A stretch of DNA of 64,000 bases, taken from positions 4,588,001 to 4,652,000 of the forward strand of contig NC_013131.1 in assembly GCF_000024025.1 (NCBI RefSeq). Reading direction: 5' to 3'. The DNA comes from Catenulispora acidiphila DSM 44928. Lineage in GTDB: Bacteria; Actinomycetota; Actinomycetes; Streptomycetales; Catenulisporaceae. Below the pieces are notes generated by a model. That model was not told the DNA's origin. It was given only the letters and a program-made list of their open reading frames with translations, and did no database searches. A program made the translations under genes and the position numbers. Below, piece after piece: positions 49,117 to 56,805 of the stretch (positions are counted from its first letter, which is position 1; every line of letters starts with the position of its first letter).

Positions 49117-49138
49117 GCTCTGAAAATGCTCTGAATTT
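49117..49138 (+). promoter_or_regulatory. 11-bp tandem direct repeat upstream of the oxidoreductase operon
   Basis: GCTCTGAAAAT (49117-49127) is followed immediately by GCTCTGAATTT (49128-49138). Direct heptamer repeats with 11-bp periodicity are the usual binding pattern of SARP-type activators of secondary metabolism. It lies 70 nt before the first start codon. No SARP gene is in the window. Confidence 0.4.
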
Positions 49139-49207: not shown

Positions 49208-50818
49208 GTGAGCGATTCCACGACGGTCGACGGCGCCATCTACGACCACCTCGTCATCGGAGCCGGGCCCGCCGGCCTCCAACTCGCCCGGCACCTGAAG
49301 GAATCGGGGAGCCGGTACACCATAGTGGAAGCCGGGGAAGCCGCCGGCACGTTCTTCGCGACTTTCCCGCGCCACAGAACCCTGATCTCCTCCAACAAGC
49401 CGCACACCGGGACCACCGACCCCGAGCTCAACTTGCGCATGGACTGGAACTCGCTGCTGTCCGGCGACCCGCAGCTGCTGTTCACCCGCTACACCGAGCG
49501 TTACTTCCCGCCCGCGGACCTCTGGCGGCAGTACCTCGCCGACTTCGCCGCCGCCTCCGAGCTGAACATCCACTACAACACGCGCGTGGTGCGGATCGAA
49601 CGCCCCGAGGCCGGCGGCCCGTTCACCGTCACAGCCCAGGACGGCAGCGTCCGGCGCGCGGCGATCGTCATCGTGGCCACCGGTGTGTCAAAGCCCTACA
49701 TCCCGCCGATCCCCGGCATCGAGCACGCCGAGCAGTACGCGACGATGACCGTCGACCCGGCCGACTTCACCGATCAGCGAGTACTGATCCTGGGCAAGGG
49801 CAACTCCGCCTTCGAGACCGCGGACAACCTGATCGAGAAGGCCGCGGTGATCCACGTCGCCGGTCCGGACGGCGTGCGCTTGGCATGGAAGACGCATTAC
49901 GTCGGCCACCTGCGCGCGGTGAACAACAACTTCCTCGACACCTACCAGCTCAAATCGCAGAACGCGATCCTCGACGGCGAGGTGCTGAGCATCACGCCGA
50001 AGCCCGGCGGCGGGTTCCTCGTGCGGTTCTCCTTCGTCCGCGCCGACGAGGTCGTCAAGGAGCTGTATTACGACCGGATCCTGTGCTGCACCGGGTTCCG
50101 GCTGGACACCGAGCCCTTCGCCGAGGAGTGCGCGCCGGCGCTCGTCATCAAGGACCGCTTCGCTGAGCTGACCTCGGCGTTCGAGTCTGTGAACGTGCCG
50201 GGTCTGTACTTCGCCGGGACGCTGATGCAGCAGCGCGAGTTCAAGAAGGCGACGACCGGCTTCATCCACGGCTACCGCTACACCGTCAAGGCCCTGAGTC
50301 GCATCCTCGACCAGCGTGGCGCCGGCGTGGTCTGGCCGAACCGGCCGATCGCCGCGACGCCGCAAGCGCTGGCGGACGCGACGATCGAGCGCGTCAACCG
50401 CAGTTCCGCGCTGTGGCAGCAGTTCGGCGTGATGGCCGACATCATCCTGCTGCCGGGCGACGGCGGGGGACAGGCGCACTACGTCGACGAGGTTCCGCTG
50501 GGGTACGCGCTCGACGGCGGGCTGGCCGACCCGGACGCCGGACTCGCCGACGACGGGCTGCTCGTCTCTGTGACCCTGGAGTACGGACCCGACCACGACA
50601 AGGTGGACCGCTTCGACGCGACGGTCAAGCGCCCCGCGCAGGACGACGCGGACGAGGCTCACAACGCCGCGTATCTGCACCCTGTCTTGCGCGTCTACCG
50701 CGACGGGAAGGCGCTGGCCGAGCACCACCTCGCCGAGAACCTGGAGAACCACTGGGACGGCGAAGCCTCGCACCGCGCACCCCTGGTGGCGTTCTTCGAG
50801 AAAGTGGCGACGCTGTGA
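49208..50818 (+). CDS. FAD-dependent oxidoreductase / FMO-like monooxygenase
   Basis: 536 aa from GTG 49208. The FAD-binding GxGxxG is LVIGAGPAGLQLARHL at residues 15-30. A second Rossmann motif for NAD(P)H is VLILGKGNSAFETADNL near 195. The segment VIVATGVSKPYIPPIPGIEH and CCTGFRLDTEPF fit FMO-like enzymes and the FOXRED2-like group. It probably oxygenates or oxidises a small molecule. First gene of a four-gene coupled operon; the stop overlaps the next GTG. Confidence 0.82.
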   Translation: MSDSTTVDGAIYDHLVIGAGPAGLQLARHLKESGSRYTIVEAGEAAGTFFATFPRHRTLISSNKPHTGTTDPELNLRMDWNSLLSGDPQLLFTRYTERYFPPADLWRQYLADFAAASELNIHYNTRVVRIERPEAGGPFTVTAQDGSVRRAAIVIVATGVSKPYIPPIPGIEHAEQYATMTVDPADFTDQRVLILGKGNSAFETADNLIEKAAVIHVAGPDGVRLAWKTHYVGHLRAVNNNFLDTYQLKSQNAILDGEVLSITPKPGGGFLVRFSFVRADEVVKELYYDRILCCTGFRLDTEPFAEECAPALVIKDRFAELTSAFESVNVPGLYFAGTLMQQREFKKATTGFIHGYRYTVKALSRILDQRGAGVVWPNRPIAATPQALADATIERVNRSSALWQQFGVMADIILLPGDGGGQAHYVDEVPLGYALDGGLADPDAGLADDGLLVSVTLEYGPDHDKVDRFDATVKRPAQDDADEAHNAAYLHPVLRVYRDGKALAEHHLAENLENHWDGEASHRAPLVAFFEKVATL

Positions 50819-51972
50819 GCGTCGCCGCCCCGGAAGCCAACGGTGCCGCGCGCCCGGAGGCCTTCGATCCTGGGTCCGGCCTCGAAGCGATGCTGACCGT
50901 CCGCGAGTTCGAGGCCGTGGCTCAGCGCAAGCTCGACCCGGTCCACTACGACTACATCGCCGGCGGCTCGCGGGACGAGGTCACCGTGCGCGCCAACGAG
51001 GACGGCTTCGGCCGACTCAGCCTTCTGCCACGCGTGTTGCGCGGCAGTGCGCAGCGCGATCTGTCCGTCACGCTGTTCGGCGGACAGTCCTCCATGCCCG
51101 TGCTGATCTCGCCGACCGCCTTCCACCGCCTGGTGTGCGCCGAGGGTGAGATCGCCACGGCGCGCGCCGCCGCTCGGGCGGGCACGATCATGATCGCGAG
51201 CATGGCGAGCACCGTCGCTGTCGGGGAGGTGGCCGCCGCCGCGCGTGCCGCCGCCGGCGACGGCGACCCCACGCTCTGGTTCCAGCTTTATCTGCAGCCT
51301 GATATGGACGACACCACGGCGTTGATCGCGCGGGCGACCGACGCCGGCTGCCGGGCGCTCGTGGTCACCGTCGACTCGCCGGTGCTCGGGGCGAACGAGC
51401 GCAATCAGCGCAACAACTTCGACGACCTGCCGCCCGAGATGGCCTGCGAGAACCTGCGCAATCTGCGCGGCGACGAGCCGGGGAACGTGCGGCAGATCGC
51501 GATGTCGCCGGAGCTGTCGTGGGAGCACATCGACTGGCTGCGAGAGCACACGCGATTGCCGATCCTGCTCAAGGGCGTCCTGCACCCCGAGGACGCGCGG
51601 ATCGCGATCGCTCACGGGATCGACGGTCTGCTGCTGTCCAATCACGGCGGCAGGCAGCTCGACACCGTTCCCGCGACGATCGACCTGCTGCCGGAGTTCG
51701 TCGCGGCGGTGGACGGCAGCGTCCCGGTGCTGCTGGACGGCGGTGTGCGGCGCGGGACCGACGTGGTCAAGGCGCTGGCGCTCGGCGCGGCGGCGGTGGG
51801 CGTCGGGCGGCCGATCGTGTGGGGGCTGGCGACCGCGGGGGAGGAGGGCGCCACGCGGGTGCTGGAGCTGCTGCGCGACGAGGTGGACCACACGGTGGCG
51901 CTGTGCGGCGCGCGCGGCTTGGCGGACCTCACGCCCGACCTGGTCCGGCCGGCCGCCGGGAGTCGTCGGTGA
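50815..51972 (+). CDS. FMN-dependent alpha-hydroxy-acid oxidase
   Basis: 385 aa from GTG 50815, coupled to the FAD oxidoreductase (GTGA). The FMN barrel starts with YDYIAGGSRDEVTVRANEDG. Typical signatures are PVLISPTAFHRLV, RALVVTVDSPVLG, LLKGVLHPEDARIA and the active-site SNHGGRQLD near residue 280 with the catalytic His and Arg. The end GVGRPIVWGLA is also conserved. It belongs to the glycolate/lactate/mandelate oxidase family. In this context it may oxidise a 2-hydroxy acid intermediate. Coupled to the P450 gene by another GTGA. Confidence 0.88.
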   Translation: MSVAAPEANGAARPEAFDPGSGLEAMLTVREFEAVAQRKLDPVHYDYIAGGSRDEVTVRANEDGFGRLSLLPRVLRGSAQRDLSVTLFGGQSSMPVLISPTAFHRLVCAEGEIATARAAARAGTIMIASMASTVAVGEVAAAARAAAGDGDPTLWFQLYLQPDMDDTTALIARATDAGCRALVVTVDSPVLGANERNQRNNFDDLPPEMACENLRNLRGDEPGNVRQIAMSPELSWEHIDWLREHTRLPILLKGVLHPEDARIAIAHGIDGLLLSNHGGRQLDTVPATIDLLPEFVAAVDGSVPVLLDGGVRRGTDVVKALALGAAAVGVGRPIVWGLATAGEEGATRVLELLRDEVDHTVALCGARGLADLTPDLVRPAAGSRR

Positions 51973-53552
51973 GCGAGACGGCCTGGAGCTGGTCCGCGGC
52001 CGGGGTGCTGGTCGTGGCCGTTCTGGCGAGCCTGCCGTACTGGCTGCCGGGCATCGTCGTCGCTCTTCGAGTACGTATATTCGCCCTCGTCAACGGTACC
52101 GAGGGGATACCGGTGCCGGGGAAGCTGGTGCGGACCGACGATTTCAAGCGCGTGTATGCCGATCCGGCTGCCAACGGACGCAGCCGGGGAGCGGCGCTGT
52201 CGGACCTGTTCTGGTACTGGCTGGCTCCCGGTCCCGAGGTCCACCAGGAACATCTGGAGCCCGGACCCCGCTACGACGACGTCGCGCGCACCACGCGGCG
52301 CACGATCGCGCGGCTGCGGAAGGACGACTGGGTGGAGCTGGTCGCGCGCTGCGCTCGGCAGGAGTTCGATCGGCTCGACGGTTCGGTGGGAGCTGGAGCT
52401 GGAGCTGGAGCGGGATCCGGAGTCGGAGTCAGGGTCGGAACCGGAACCGGAACCGGAACCGGAACCGAAACCGGAGTCGGAGCTGGATCCGGAGTCGGTG
52501 CTGGAGCGGGGTCCGGAGTCGGAGCCGGCGCGGGAGCCGGAGCCGGAGCCAAAATCGGCGCTGGAGGAGGAGTCGGATCCCGTCGGGCGCGCGTGGTGCG
52601 GCTGCGCGACGCGATGATGCCGCTGTGGGCCTCGGTGTACTACGAGGTCGTCTTCGGCGAGCCCTGCCCGCCGGATGCGCGCGAGCTGATCGTGGCGAAC
52701 GCGAACGACGTCGTCAGTGCTCTGAAATGCACGCGGCTGCGCCACATGCGACGGCGGGACCGGCTGACGCGTTACCTGCGCGGCAAGATCGCCGACGGCG
52801 CCGTGCCCTATGGTCTGCCCGCCACGTTCACCGAGCAGGAGCAGGCGTACTACCTGCAGGGCACGTACTTCAACACCGCCGTGGTGCAGATGTCCGAGGG
52901 CATGGCGCATCTGCTGCTGGCGATCGCGGCCCGGCCCGAGTTGCAGCGGCGGCTGCGGACCGATCCGGCCGCGCAGACCGAGCTGCTCGACCGGGTGATC
53001 GAGGAGACCCTGCGCGTCTACCCGTTGTTCGGCGTCGCGCACCGCATCACCTCGGCGCAGATCGCGCTGGGGGAGACGGCGATCCCGTCCGGGTCGGTGC
53101 TGCTGTTCAACTACGCCGAGTACCACCACGCCGGCGGGCCCGACGCGGCCGAGTTCGATCCGGACCGCTGGTTGCGCGAGCACCCCGAGCATGTGAACCA
53201 CATCCCGTTCGGAGTCAGCGCGAACCGTCCCTGTCCGGCGCGCGGGATCGCGCCGCTGACCATGCGCGTCGCGGCGGCCGAAATGCTGCGGCGCTACGCG
53301 CTGTCCACGTCCGTGGGCCACACGCGCTCGCTGCCGAACCGCGGACCGTGCCTGCTGACGCCGCTTGCCCCGGACCAGCAGGGGGAGCCGCCGCGGCTCG
53401 CCGCTCGGTTGGCGTTGCTGCGGGTTCGTGACCGCTGGGAAGACGTCTGGCGCAGTCTGGTCCAGCTCGTGCTCGGCACGTACATGGTCTGGGACGCGCG
53501 CCGCCTTCGGTTGTGCCGGAACTACTTCGCCGCTCAGGAGGCCGAGCAGTGA
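51969..53552 (+). CDS. Unusual cytochrome P450 with membrane anchor and Gly-X repeat insert
   Basis: 527 aa from GTG 51969. An N-terminal membrane segment (AAGVLVVAVLASLPYWL) precedes the P450 body. The ExxR motif is EETLR (Glu346/Arg349), and the heme loop FGVSANRPCPARG carries Cys422. The I-helix aligns as TAVVQMSE where AGxETT is expected, so the acid-alcohol pair is missing. Residues about 140-205 are an inserted Gly-Ala/Ser/Thr/Val repeat from a DNA minisatellite. The I-helix and insert suggest non-standard chemistry or a relaxed loop. GTGA overlaps on both sides bind it to the operon. Confidence 0.82.
   Translation: MSETAWSWSAAGVLVVAVLASLPYWLPGIVVALRVRIFALVNGTEGIPVPGKLVRTDDFKRVYADPAANGRSRGAALSDLFWYWLAPGPEVHQEHLEPGPRYDDVARTTRRTIARLRKDDWVELVARCARQEFDRLDGSVGAGAGAGAGSGVGVRVGTGTGTGTGTETGVGAGSGVGAGAGSGVGAGAGAGAGAKIGAGGGVGSRRARVVRLRDAMMPLWASVYYEVVFGEPCPPDARELIVANANDVVSALKCTRLRHMRRRDRLTRYLRGKIADGAVPYGLPATFTEQEQAYYLQGTYFNTAVVQMSEGMAHLLLAIAARPELQRRLRTDPAAQTELLDRVIEETLRVYPLFGVAHRITSAQIALGETAIPSGSVLLFNYAEYHHAGGPDAAEFDPDRWLREHPEHVNHIPFGVSANRPCPARGIAPLTMRVAAAEMLRRYALSTSVGHTRSLPNRGPCLLTPLAPDQQGEPPRLAARLALLRVRDRWEDVWRSLVQLVLGTYMVWDARRLRLCRNYFAAQEAEQ
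52388..52581 (+). repeat. Hexanucleotide minisatellite inside the P450 gene
   Basis: The stretch is built from GGAGCN, GGAACC and GGAGTC-type hexamers, including five near-exact GGAACC units. It encodes Gly-X dipeptides and keeps the frame because the unit is 6 bp. Another frame reads Glu-X dipeptides. Length variation among strains would be expected. Confidence 0.8.
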
Positions 53553-54826
53553 GTGCCAGTGCCCTGTCGCCCCGCTTCTTCATCGCCGTCGTCGTGATCC
53601 TGTTGTTCTGCCGCCTGATTTCCTGGTCCATCGGCAAGGTCGGGCAGCCTCCGGTCGTCGGCGAGATGGTCGCCGGCGTGCTGCTCGGGCCCTCGCTGCT
53701 CGGCGCGGTCGCTCCGCGCCTGGAGAACGAGCTGTTCCCGAACGCGCTCAAGCCAGTGCTCTACATCGCCGGGCAGATCGGCTTGGTGGCGTTCATGTTC
53801 CAGGCCGGTCACGAGTTCCGGGCGCATCTGGATCGGCACATCGCGCGCGCGGCGGCGACCGTGTCGGGGGCGGGGATCGTCGTGCCGCTGGCGTTCGGCG
53901 TGCTGCTGGCGATCGGGGCGCACGGCCGTGTCAACATCTTCGTCGACGGCGTCTCGCCGGTGGTGACGGAGGCGTTCGTCGGCGTCGCGCTGGCCATCAC
54001 CGCCTTCCCGATGCTCGCGCGGATCATCACCGAACGAGGGCTGTCCGGGACCCGCTACGGATCGCTCGCGCTGGCCGCCGGTGCGATCGACGACGTGGTC
54101 GCCTGGTGTCTGCTGGCCGGTGTGCTCGCCGTGGCCACGGGACATCCCAAGCCGATCCTGGTCGCCCTCGGCGGGATGGTGGTGTTCGGCTTGTCCGTGT
54201 ACTACGCCGCCCGGCCGCTGCTTGCCAGGACCCTGCGACAGAGCGGGTCGGTGAGCGACGGGCAGGTGCTGGTCGTGGTCGCGGTGTTGTTCCTGGCGGC
54301 CTGGTTCACCGACGAGATCGGGCTCTACGCGGTCTTCGGCGCCTTCTGCGTGGGCATGGTGATGCCGCGCGACGACACCGCCGAGCGTGCGGTCGGGACC
54401 ATCAGCACCAGCAGCCGGATCATCTTCCTGCCGATGTTCTTCGTCTACTCCGGTCTCAACACGCGTTTCGGGCTGCTGGGCAAACCGGCGCTGCTGCTGT
54501 TCTCGCTGTTCGCGGTGATCCTCGCCGTGGCCGGCAAGTTCTGGGCGTGCTGGCTCGCCGCCCGGCTCAGCGGGCAGGACCAGGCGACGGCCGTGCGGCT
54601 CGGGACGCTGATGAATGCCAGAGGTCTGATGCAGCTCATCGCGTTGAACGTCGGGCTGCAGGCGGGCATCATCAACAGCGAGCTGTTCACCGCGCTGGTC
54701 CTGGTCGCCCTTGTCACGACCCTGATGGCTTCGCCCGCGCTCACGCTGCTGGACCGGCGGCTTCCGGTCTCGGAGGAGGCCGGGAGCGCCGAGCCCGACT
54801 CCCAGCTCGCCGCGGCGCCGGCGTGA
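53549..54826 (+). CDS. CPA2-type cation/proton antiporter (KefB/NapA-like)
   Basis: 425 aa from GTG 53549, overlapping the P450 stop. About 12 spans are seen, with the CPA2 start GQPPVVGEMVAGVLLGPSLL, LVAFMFQAGHEFRAHL, the half-helix region LALAAGAIDDVVAWCLLAGV (conserved Asp-Asp) and LMNARGLMQLIALNVGLQAG. It exchanges Na+ or K+ for protons. Its place as last gene of an oxidoreductase operon is unusual; it may export or set the pH/ion balance needed for the product. Terminates before a two-component system. Confidence 0.88.
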   Translation: MSASALSPRFFIAVVVILLFCRLISWSIGKVGQPPVVGEMVAGVLLGPSLLGAVAPRLENELFPNALKPVLYIAGQIGLVAFMFQAGHEFRAHLDRHIARAAATVSGAGIVVPLAFGVLLAIGAHGRVNIFVDGVSPVVTEAFVGVALAITAFPMLARIITERGLSGTRYGSLALAAGAIDDVVAWCLLAGVLAVATGHPKPILVALGGMVVFGLSVYYAARPLLARTLRQSGSVSDGQVLVVVAVLFLAAWFTDEIGLYAVFGAFCVGMVMPRDDTAERAVGTISTSSRIIFLPMFFVYSGLNTRFGLLGKPALLLFSLFAVILAVAGKFWACWLAARLSGQDQATAVRLGTLMNARGLMQLIALNVGLQAGIINSELFTALVLVALVTTLMASPALTLLDRRLPVSEEAGSAEPDSQLAAAPA

Positions 54827-54869
54827 TCCGGCATTCAGGACGAGACAGAGGCCTGAGATCAATGTCTGA

Positions 54870-54875
54870 CATAAT
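54870..54875 (+). promoter_or_regulatory. Possible -10 box of a leaderless two-component operon
   Basis: CATAAT lies 8 nt before the response regulator ATG at 54884, which would place the transcription start at or next to the ATG. A small palindrome TGTC-T-GACA (54864-54872) overlaps it. No clear -35 box is visible. The spacing suggests a leaderless transcript. Confidence 0.3.
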
Positions 54876-54883
54876 GCGGCAGC

Positions 54884-55561
54884 ATGGCAGCGGAGACGCC
54901 GCAGAAAAACAGACTCCTGATCGTCGAGGACGACACCGAGCTCGCCACGCTGCTCACGGCCCTGATCGAGGGCGAGGGCTTCCACGTGGACACCGCGCAC
55001 GACGCGCAGCGCGGGCTGCATCTGGGGCTGGCGCACGATTACCGGGTCATGGTGATCGACCGGCGGCTGCCCGGGATGGACGGTCTGGACCTGGTGGCCG
55101 GGCTGCGGCGCCGTGCGGTCACCGCCCGGGTGCTGATCCTCACGGCGCTGGGCGCGCACGCCGAGCGCGTGCGCGGGCTCGACGGCGGCGCCGACGACTA
55201 CCTGACCAAGCCGTTCGACGTGCATGAGCTGCTGGCGCGGGTTCGCGCGCTGGACCGGAGGTTCTCCGACGCCTCGGATCTGCTCCGGCTCGGCGAGGGG
55301 TACCTGGACCGGCAGGCGCGGGACGTCGCGCTGGCGGACGGGACGCGCGTCGCGCTGTCGGGGCGCGAGTTCGACCTGTTGGACACCTTGGCCGCACGAC
55401 CGCGCGCCATCCATTCGCGATCGCAGTTGCGGGCCACGGTGTTCCCGGACACGGCGGCGGAATCCGTTGTCGACACCTATGTGTACTACTTACGCCGTAA
55501 GCTCGGCCGGCAGATTGTGCGGACCGTTTACGGCCTCGGCTATCGGATAGGCATGCTGTGA
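54884..55561 (+). CDS. OmpR-family response regulator
   Basis: 225 aa. The receiver domain has LLIVEDDTELATLL and phospho-acceptor Asp59 in VMVIDRRLPGMDG; Lys is in DDYLTKPFDVHE. The C-terminal winged helix (LSGREFDLLDTLAARPRAIH, VDTYVYYLRRKLG) is of the OmpR/PhoB type. It is coupled to the kinase gene by a GTGA overlap. The pair lies just downstream of the oxidoreductase operon and might control it, though direct evidence is lacking. Confidence 0.92.
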   Translation: MAAETPQKNRLLIVEDDTELATLLTALIEGEGFHVDTAHDAQRGLHLGLAHDYRVMVIDRRLPGMDGLDLVAGLRRRAVTARVLILTALGAHAERVRGLDGGADDYLTKPFDVHELLARVRALDRRFSDASDLLRLGEGYLDRQARDVALADGTRVALSGREFDLLDTLAARPRAIHSRSQLRATVFPDTAAESVVDTYVYYLRRKLGRQIVRTVYGLGYRIGML

Positions 55562-56805
55562 TTCTCCGACGGTCCGCTCCGGCGCGCGGTCCTGATCGGC
55601 GCGTGCTGACGCGGGCCGCGGCGGTGCTGGCGTGCCGGATCGCTTCGGGGTTCTTGGTCGCGCTGGTGCTGCTTGGTTTCTGCGCGTATCGCGTGGTGCT
55701 TGACGAGCAGCGGACGCAGGCTCGGCATCAACTGAGTATGGCGCTGGCCATGGACAATCCGGATGTCGCGATTCCGTGTGTGTGGTTGTTCGAGGTGCAG
55801 GGTGCGAGTGTTCGGCATGCGCAGCAGATTCCGGCGGGGTTCCCGCTCGCGTCGGCGGTGAACGGCGCGCAGGACGGTGCGGCGCCTTCGCTGACGCATG
55901 TCACGGTGAGCAAGACCGACTTCGATGTGCTGACCGTGCGGCGCGGCGGGGTGGTGCGGCAGGCGGTGTTCGACACCTGGTATCAGCAGGCTGATCTGGA
56001 TCACTTGGTGCGGGCGTTGCTGCTGGTCGGGCTGATCGGGGTGGTGATGGCCACGATCGTCGGCGCCTTGTTGGGGCGGCGGTCGATCGCGCCGCTCGGG
56101 GACGCGCTGGAGCGTCAGCGGCGGTTCGTGGCCGATGCCAGTCATGAGCTGCGCACGCCGCTGACGCGGTTGCACACGCGCGCGCAGATGTTGTTGCGGT
56201 GGCAGGAGGAGCAAAGGCAGGCCGAGGCGTTGCCGACCGAGGTGTCGGACCGGCTCGGCGGCGAGCTCAGCGCGATGGTCGGCGCGGCCGGCGAGCTGAA
56301 CGAGGTGGTCGAGGACCTGCTGATGTCCGCCGGCATGCGCACCGACCCGACCCGCTGCGAGCGCTTCGACCTGGCCACGCTCGCCGCCGAGGTGATCGAG
56401 GCCGAGCGCCCCCGCCTGGGCTCGCGCGTCCTGGTCCTGCACACCGTTGGCGACCACCTGGCGATCAGCGGCGCCCGCTCCTCCCTGCGCCGCATGATCT
56501 CAACCCTGGTCGACAACGCCATCAGCCACACCGGCCCGACCGGACGCATCGAGATCTCCCTGCGCCCAGCCGGCCGCGCCATCGTCGAACTCGAAGTCAC
56601 CGACGACGGCACCGGCTTCGACCCCGCCGACCGCGACCGCATCTTCGAACGCTTCGCCCAAAGCGGCAGCCCCGCCGCCCACCACTTCGGCCTCGGCCTG
56701 GCCCTGGCCCGCGAGATCGCCACGGACCACGGCGGCACGATCCGCGCGGTGGGGCAGCTGGGGGAGGGCGCTAGCTTCACGGTGCGGCTGCCGGTGCGGG
56801 GGTGA
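55558..56805 (+). CDS. Membrane sensor histidine kinase
   Basis: 415 aa from GTG 55558. Two membrane spans (ASGFLVALVLLGFCAYRVV and ALLLVGLIGVVMATIVGALL) flank an extracytoplasmic sensor of about 110 residues. The dimerisation domain has DASHELRTPLTRLHTRAQ, and the HATPase has VDNAISHTGPTGRIEI, DDGTGFDPADRDRIFERFA and HFGLGLALAREI. Partner of the preceding regulator. The sensed signal is unknown. Confidence 0.92.
   Translation: MILRRSAPARGPDRRVLTRAAAVLACRIASGFLVALVLLGFCAYRVVLDEQRTQARHQLSMALAMDNPDVAIPCVWLFEVQGASVRHAQQIPAGFPLASAVNGAQDGAAPSLTHVTVSKTDFDVLTVRRGGVVRQAVFDTWYQQADLDHLVRALLLVGLIGVVMATIVGALLGRRSIAPLGDALERQRRFVADASHELRTPLTRLHTRAQMLLRWQEEQRQAEALPTEVSDRLGGELSAMVGAAGELNEVVEDLLMSAGMRTDPTRCERFDLATLAAEVIEAERPRLGSRVLVLHTVGDHLAISGARSSLRRMISTLVDNAISHTGPTGRIEISLRPAGRAIVELEVTDDGTGFDPADRDRIFERFAQSGSPAAHHFGLGLALAREIATDHGGTIRAVGQLGEGASFTVRLPVRG

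Follow-up and report, generated by a model that had tools for sequence, protein, structure and literature searches.

Several cytochrome P450 enzymes depart from the usual dependence on redox partners. Peroxygenase P450s without the acid-alcohol pair have been described (PMC10988616), and in the CYP152 enzymes this pair is replaced by Arg-Pro (PMC5818669). Alterations of the pair that increase peroxygenase activity have been reported, as has the artificial coupling or fusion of oxidases to P450 peroxygenases (PMC10750395), and CYP74 enzymes require neither O2 nor a redox partner (PMC10813956). The locus considered here is a six-gene operon of Catenulispora acidiphila DSM 44928, located in a stretch of 64,000 nucleotides (the window; NC_013131.1, positions 4,588,001 to 4,652,000) within a genome of 10,467,782 bases in a single contig. 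It encodes a flavin adenine dinucleotide (FAD)/NAD(P) oxidoreductase (FOX), a flavin mononucleotide (FMN)-dependent alpha-hydroxy-acid oxidase (HAO), a non-canonical P450, a CPA2-family cation/proton antiporter, a response regulator (RR) and a sensor histidine kinase (HK). It is quite possible, though short of probable, that the operon, under two-component control, is the oxidative half of a pathway dedicated to biosynthesis, with an aromatic carboxylic acid as substrate, and that its P450 uses or rearranges peroxide. The features present in the sequences are the linkage of the genes, the co-occurrence of a ligase (LIG), a common upstream box, an intact HAO active site and a P450 that lacks the acid-alcohol pair.

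Gene order, the unlinked ligase and a common box

When named genomes were scanned with the P450, 303 related stretches were returned and the best 80 were kept, several of them ended by contig ends; the closest named relative found is Catenulispora pinisilvae. These 80 loci were picked through the P450, and even genome samples were added for balance; searches of the latter score few candidates per genome, so the absences that they yield are lower bounds. The earlier note on this DNA had held that its proposal would fall if homologues of the genes were rarely adjacent elsewhere, and this is not what was found: FOX, HAO and P450 genes are consecutive, in this order and on one strand, in 71 of the 80 loci, the antiporter gene follows them in 54, and the full six-gene order of the window recurs in 32. 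HAO is present in 78 loci, FOX in 73, the antiporter in 60, and RR and HK in 51 each; further partners are LIG, an AMP-binding ligase (45), a Sulfotransfer_4 protein (16), an aromatic amino-acid lyase (11), an aromatic-acid/H+ symporter and a DUF6282 protein (8 each) and an aldehyde dehydrogenase (5). The order is kept across many named genera, above chance.

Among sampled genomes of the phylum, the P450 was matched at E<=1e-30 in 5 of 296 (its own counted), and among those of the class at E<=1e-60 in 13 of 394; FOX and HAO accompany it in all 13, in two of them on the opposite strand. With FOX as the query, 17 of 99 relatives, C. acidiphila included, have the gene, and HAO and the P450 are present in 15 of these 17 regions; in the remaining two (L125, L128) FOX faces a contig end and its neighbours would lie off the contig. 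FOX-type matches at E<=1e-60 occur in 15 of 396 phylum genomes, six of them close and nine distant (26-31% identity), and no pathway partner was found within flanks of about 1.5 kb around the nine distant ones. A FOX-like gene with 43% identity (L226:5668-7158) has no other partner within the 13 kb read, and its genome (G204) also holds the full cluster. In addition, the cluster is found on contigs filed as Melainabacteria (L042) and as Acidobacteria-type, Sulfopaludibacter (L087), which reflects either transfer or mis-binned actinomycete contigs, and plasmid records gave a single match, from Nonomuraea and unannotated. A block common to five loci (L045, L051, L068, L096, L099) was considered as a larger cluster and rejected, since the downstream genes scanned are of housekeeping types (ruvC, ruvA, ruvB, yajC, secD, secF, relA).

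LIG is predicted to be acid-activating and seems to be the other constant enzyme of the pathway besides the oxidases of the operon. In C. acidiphila its gene is unlinked, at position 7,595,364 of the genome, 3 Mb from the operon. At E<=1e-120 LIG occurs in 12 of the 394 class genomes, all 12 of which are among the 13 with the P450 (hypergeometric 5e-22), and in the thirteenth, whose assembly is fragmented, a truncated LIG lies at the edge of a contig. The best solved relatives of LIG are 6sq8 (E 2e-112) and 6h1b (E 5e-111), labelled 'Fatty acid CoA ligase', which we take to be McbA. McbA is an amide bond synthetase with a broad aryl-acid scope, and neither structure code appears in the accessible part of the text describing it (PMC6282839).

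Upstream of FOX, TCTGAAAATGCTCTGA forms a direct repeat with an 11-bp period. Across the loci, the pattern TCTGA-N6-TCTGA has 66 matches in 43 of 98 (65 in 42 of 97 once near-identical loci are merged), and spacers of 4, 5, 7 and 8 give 1, 1, 1 and 2. Most matches lie 50-155 nt before FOX; others precede LIG or a second FOX gene, or fall between the genes of the sulfotransferase and LIG, and one (L071) is far from every pathway gene. Where a two-component system is linked, 36 of 59 loci have a box within 250 nt of the FOX start, versus 4 of 30 where none is linked (Fisher p 1.5e-5); counted again with the window added and duplicate loci collapsed, the figures are 37 of 60 versus 4 of 30. The C. 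acidiphila genome (10.47 Mb) has 15 exact boxes and none of the reversed pattern used as control. One of these is the box at FOX and another, the near-identical TCTGAAGATGCTCTGA, precedes the unlinked LIG gene by about 85 nt; because the same box stands upstream of both, the operon and LIG probably constitute one regulon. Six of the other 13 were viewed by eye, none of which is beside a pathway gene and two of which are kept in the genus. Since 64 kb of sequence would contain, by chance, a mean of 1.6 matches when up to one mismatch is allowed, the box is supported by its conservation and not by the single site.

RR has the Response_reg and Trans_reg_C domains of the OmpR/PhoB type, whose operators are typically 11-bp direct repeats like those at its predicted targets, and the box before FOX is probably the binding site of this linked regulator. 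An exact-box search of five more genomes found the box at the cluster in G609, G302 and G304, no box in G204 and two in G364, neither at the cluster; G204 and G364 belong to a branch with an ammonia-lyase, described below. Three Catenulispora genomes keep a box upstream of a groEL-like gene, in the gap between two small genes that look MoaD/ThiS-like and cold-shock-like by eye (L257:6822, L260:6355, L262:5868), and this copy may belong to another OmpR-type regulator.

The earlier note had described four genes with GTGA overlaps at 50815, 51969 and 53549, and all these open reading frames and junctions were found again. The box, the two-component system and the unlinked ligase had escaped it, and two of its further claims need correction. 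The operon does not end in the antiporter gene, after which the RR gene follows on the same strand with a gap of 57 nt and is joined to the HK gene by a fourth GTGA overlap; the operon is of six genes, and the four-gene borders were too narrow. Nor do the overlaps show that, as a general property, the products are made in fixed proportion; a 4-nt overlap is possible at only 27 of 67, 46 of 77 and 22 of 60 junctions in homologues. Ahead of the RR gene, at about 54862-54878, lies AATGTCTGACATAATG, which includes a small dyad and a hexamer, CATAAT, that resembles a -10 element, and sequences akin to this stretch occur in three other Catenulispora genomes (L122, L123, L124).

The P450, its partner enzymes and the antiporter

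The protein is a P450 by its domain (PF00067, 1.5e-17), its E346-T-L-R349 motif, its Cys ligand C422 and its fold, with 1000 of 1000 compared chains at Z>=8. It was called odd in the earlier note, which gave no reason; the oddity is real and resides in the I helix and in the Cys loop. In an alignment of 80 family sequences, the window's included, the I helix has the consensus LQGxFFNTAVVQxSEA, in which V306-Q307 occupy the position of the acid-alcohol pair and Gln stands at that of the catalytic Thr in 80 of 80. The register was set by aligning the family with five ordinary P450s from this genome, and it agrees with a printed profile alignment to CYP3A4 that starts just past the pair. The window P450 thus lacks the canonical AGx[DE]T; among the 21 other P450 genes of its genome, 18 have [AG]Gx[DE][TS], one has AGYEN and two could not be resolved. 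Likewise, the canonical Cys motif FxxGx[RH]xCxG is replaced by FGVSANRPCPA, which is one residue longer; the family loop reads PFGxxANRPCPA, with Ala for the last Gly and with N419, R420, C422 and A424 in 80 of 80. The F-N-T stretch of the I helix and an N-[KR]-x-C-[AP] pattern at the Cys are, we assume, CYP74-like, and no CYP74 chain is among the best 50 of the 1000 structural neighbours, which is uninformative either way.

An AlphaFold model (pLDDT 83) shows a P450 fold with a long N-terminal helix and an extra C-terminal helical pair. The N-terminal helix is hydrophobic by eye and is a candidate membrane anchor. The protein also contains a disordered Gly-X insert at residues of about 138-205 (145-201 in the model), which is encoded by 27 copies of a hexanucleotide, a coding variable-number tandem repeat that differs between Catenulispora orthologues. 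An essential role of this insert was considered and rejected, as its sequence differs in each of six Catenulispora orthologues and its length in all but two; the first four homologues outside the genus match the P450 only in the parts that flank it. No redox partner is among the conserved neighbour families identified.

HAO belongs to the FMN_dh family (PF01070, 6e-123), with K253, H277 and R280 in 77 of 77 aligned sequences and Tyr159 as Tyr in 74 of 77. The position of Trp108 of glycolate oxidase is Ala in 68 and Leu in 9 of the 77, a hint that the site could accommodate a bulkier hydroxy acid, perhaps an aromatic one. Among solved structures, the best single-domain matches are to glycolate/hydroxy-acid oxidases (281-298 bits), and HAO is likely to be an oxidase that uses O2 as acceptor rather than a dehydrogenase. 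FOX has two dinucleotide sites of the GxGxxG type, as class B flavin monooxygenases do, GAGPAG in 69 of 73 sequences and a second one that most often reads GKGNSAFE (49 of 73). The fingerprint of class B flavin monooxygenases is FxGxxxHxxx[YF]; the FOX consensus at this site is PGiEtae.Y, with no conserved His. By fold it is closest to flavin monooxygenases and to thioredoxin- or ferredoxin-reductase-like proteins, and it is presumably FOXRED2-like; DiatB, another fold neighbour, is named in no paper found in the open-access literature. The antiporter belongs to the CPA2 family (PF00999, 3.7e-49; Asp181-Asp182 in 58 of 58 aligned sequences) and scores below the curated TIGR00932 cut-off (118 versus 238 bits).

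Table 1. Features of the operon, in window positions
Feature	Position	Strand	Basis
Direct-repeat box TCTGA-N6-TCTGA, 11-bp period, 89 nt before FOX	49119-49134	+	pattern search, conservation
FOX, FAD/NAD(P) oxidoreductase (Pyr_redox_3), 536 aa	49208-50818	+	Pfam/NCBIfam profiles
HAO, FMN-dependent alpha-hydroxy-acid oxidase (FMN_dh), 385 aa	50815-51972	+	Pfam/NCBIfam profiles
Non-canonical cytochrome P450, 527 aa	51969-53552	+	p450 profile, alignment, AlphaFold model
In-frame hexanucleotide repeat in the P450 gene, encodes the disordered Gly-X insert	52389-52550	+	
CPA2-family cation/proton antiporter (Na_H_Exchanger), 425 aa	53549-54826	+	Pfam/NCBIfam profiles
RR, OmpR/PhoB-type response regulator	54884-55561	+	Pfam/NCBIfam domains, neighbourhood comparison
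HK, sensor histidine kinase	55558-56805	+	Pfam/NCBIfam domains, neighbourhood comparison

Proposed pathway and competing explanations

In the proposed pathway, an aromatic carboxylic acid would be adenylated and coupled by LIG; in one branch, this acid may be p-coumarate, formed from tyrosine by the linked ammonia-lyase. FOX would oxygenate or oxidise the activated acid, and HAO would convert an alpha-hydroxy acid into the alpha-keto acid and H2O2. The P450, presumably membrane-bound, would take this H2O2 through the peroxide shunt or would rearrange a peroxide. The antiporter, replaced elsewhere by the aromatic-acid/H+ symporter, would transport the charged product or substrate, and the kinase/regulator pair would turn the pathway on. 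The symporter and the antiporter do not occur together in any of the eight symporter loci. The earlier note had likewise proposed a compact oxidative pathway followed by transport, which agrees with this scheme; its small 2-hydroxy acid or amino-acid-like substrate is upheld only in part, because the ligase, the ammonia-lyase and the symporter point to an aromatic carboxylic acid. The pathway itself is held with much more confidence than the peroxide chemistry. That HAO, translationally coupled to a new, membrane-bound Val-Gln P450 family, feeds H2O2 to it directly, as a natural oxidase-peroxygenase couple within a two-component-controlled aromatic-acid pathway of many actinomycete genera, is conceivable but rather doubtful.

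The ammonia-lyase, which is linked in other loci and absent from the window, has the MIO (methylidene-imidazolone) motif ASGD and a His-Leu pair in 10 of 10 aligned sequences, the pair being aligned on the HHL of 2o6y, the best-matching bacterial enzyme. Such a His-Leu pair is a mark of tyrosine ammonia-lyases. One scanned lyase matches eight NCBIfam models, including HutH and tyrosine aminomutase, without reaching the cut-off of any. In a group of loci (L130-L136, L088, L097, L109, L114, L119) a second FOX gene is found beside LIG and a tyrosine-ammonia-lyase-like gene, and the exact box is mostly absent there despite a linked two-component system. Furthermore, an OsmC-like (peroxide-type) protein is encoded beside a few clusters, which was counted in favour of the proposed pathway. 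The gene lies beside or near that of the aldehyde dehydrogenase in Actinocatenispora clusters (L054:7275-7679, called by scan, and L056 and L082, called by clustering).

Several observations weigh against the proposed pathway. FOX and the P450 occur without HAO in two of the 80 loci (L066, L084), and the lyase is linked in only 11, with no close relative found in the C. acidiphila genome (best E 9e-72). Of the 18 loci with both a two-component system and the ammonia-lyase, only 3 have the exact box upstream of FOX, and therefore this branch would have another or a diverged site. HAO scores 178-193 bits per domain against lactate oxidases, which is below the 205-228 bits against dehydrogenases. 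The modelled structure of the P450 shows no preference for peroxygenases, with CYP17, CYP175, CYP90 and CYP152 all at Z 25.7-28.5. The role of peroxide is deduced from missing residues, and the P450 may still borrow redox partners encoded elsewhere. Finally, the aldehyde dehydrogenase, the DUF6282 protein and the uptake-type symporter of some loci would suit catabolism.

Three other explanations were considered. The same pathway could contain a P450 that works as an ordinary O2/NAD(P)H monooxygenase, or as a reductive or dehydrating enzyme, served by a ferredoxin from elsewhere, with FOX perhaps as a flavin reductase and the H2O2 of HAO as waste. Borrowed redox partners are frequent for actinomycete P450s, and the FOX model also resembles ferredoxin-NADP reductase and thioredoxin-reductase-like folds; however, the lack of the acid-alcohol pair (V306-Q307) and the changed Cys loop extend to every one of the 80 sequences, and no ferredoxin is among the scanned neighbour families, a subset of all. 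This explanation seems unlikely. It appears still less likely that the operon is catabolic, namely that it serves the import, activation and degradation of an aromatic or hydroxy acid, a substrate which the two-component system senses. The loci with the symporter (8 of 80), the DUF6282 protein (8) or the aldehyde dehydrogenase (5) may leave room for it, whereas 60 loci have the CPA2 antiporter instead, the tyrosine-ammonia-lyase-like gene (11) and the Sulfotransfer_4 gene (16) fit synthesis, and the closest solved relatives of LIG are presumably of a biosynthetic type, an amide bond synthetase. Biosynthesis is preferred because of this lyase, the sulfotransferase and the ligase. An OmpR-type two-component system beside a CPA2 antiporter would also be expected of a stress or ion-homeostasis operon, in which the kinase would respond to envelope or ion stress, with the antiporter as its main output, and the oxidoreductases would only repair or detoxify. 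The antiporter, however, is replaceable (60 of 80), whereas FOX, HAO, the P450 and LIG are nearly constant, and this explanation is very improbable.

Novelty and comparison with known systems

A biosynthetic pathway of this kind would be defined by FOX, HAO, the P450, LIG, a transporter, the two-component system and the box, a small and sharply delimited set that occurs in many actinomycetes of the type screened for natural products. It includes no non-ribosomal peptide synthetase, polyketide synthase or terpene synthase, the usual markers of such clusters. Its parts come from known superfamilies; what appears to be undescribed is their combination, together with the Val-Gln P450 family and the regulon, within the open-access literature searched, in which no description of the operon or of the Val-Gln signature was found, and the statement of the earlier note that its gene order matches no described system holds to this extent. 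The box offers a direct handle for turning the pathway on and finding its product.

The individual enzymes can be set beside better known ones. CYP74 enzymes are mostly from plants, and no search gave a relationship between them and the window P450. HAO shares the family and the catalytic Lys, His and Arg of the glycolate/hydroxy-acid oxidases (GOX, HAO1), and differs from GOX in having Ala or Leu in place of Trp108. LIG resembles McbA of the marinacarboline pathway insofar as 6sq8 and 6h1b are, as we assume, structures of the latter; these relatives carry the label of a fatty acid CoA ligase, and LIG may be a CoA ligase instead. Like the P450 of the window, the CYP152 enzymes P450BSbeta and OleT lack the acid-alcohol pair, and their structures align with the P450 model at Z 25.7-26.5. 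They work with H2O2 and not with a redox partner, whereas peroxide use by the window P450 is only deduced. Moreover, they have Arg-Pro where the window family has Val-Gln, which places it outside CYP152 as defined in PMC5818669, and the long hydrophobic N-terminal helix and the C-terminal helical extension are further differences of the window family. If the oxidase does feed the P450, the operon would be a natural counterpart of the engineered oxidase-P450 peroxygenase fusions. In the engineered couples AldO-OleT, sarcosine oxidase-P450SPalpha and glucose oxidase with CYP105D18, an H2O2-releasing oxidase similarly feeds a P450 (PMC10750395); these are artificial, whereas here, as known from sequence alone, overlapping oxidase and P450 genes stand together in a natural operon.

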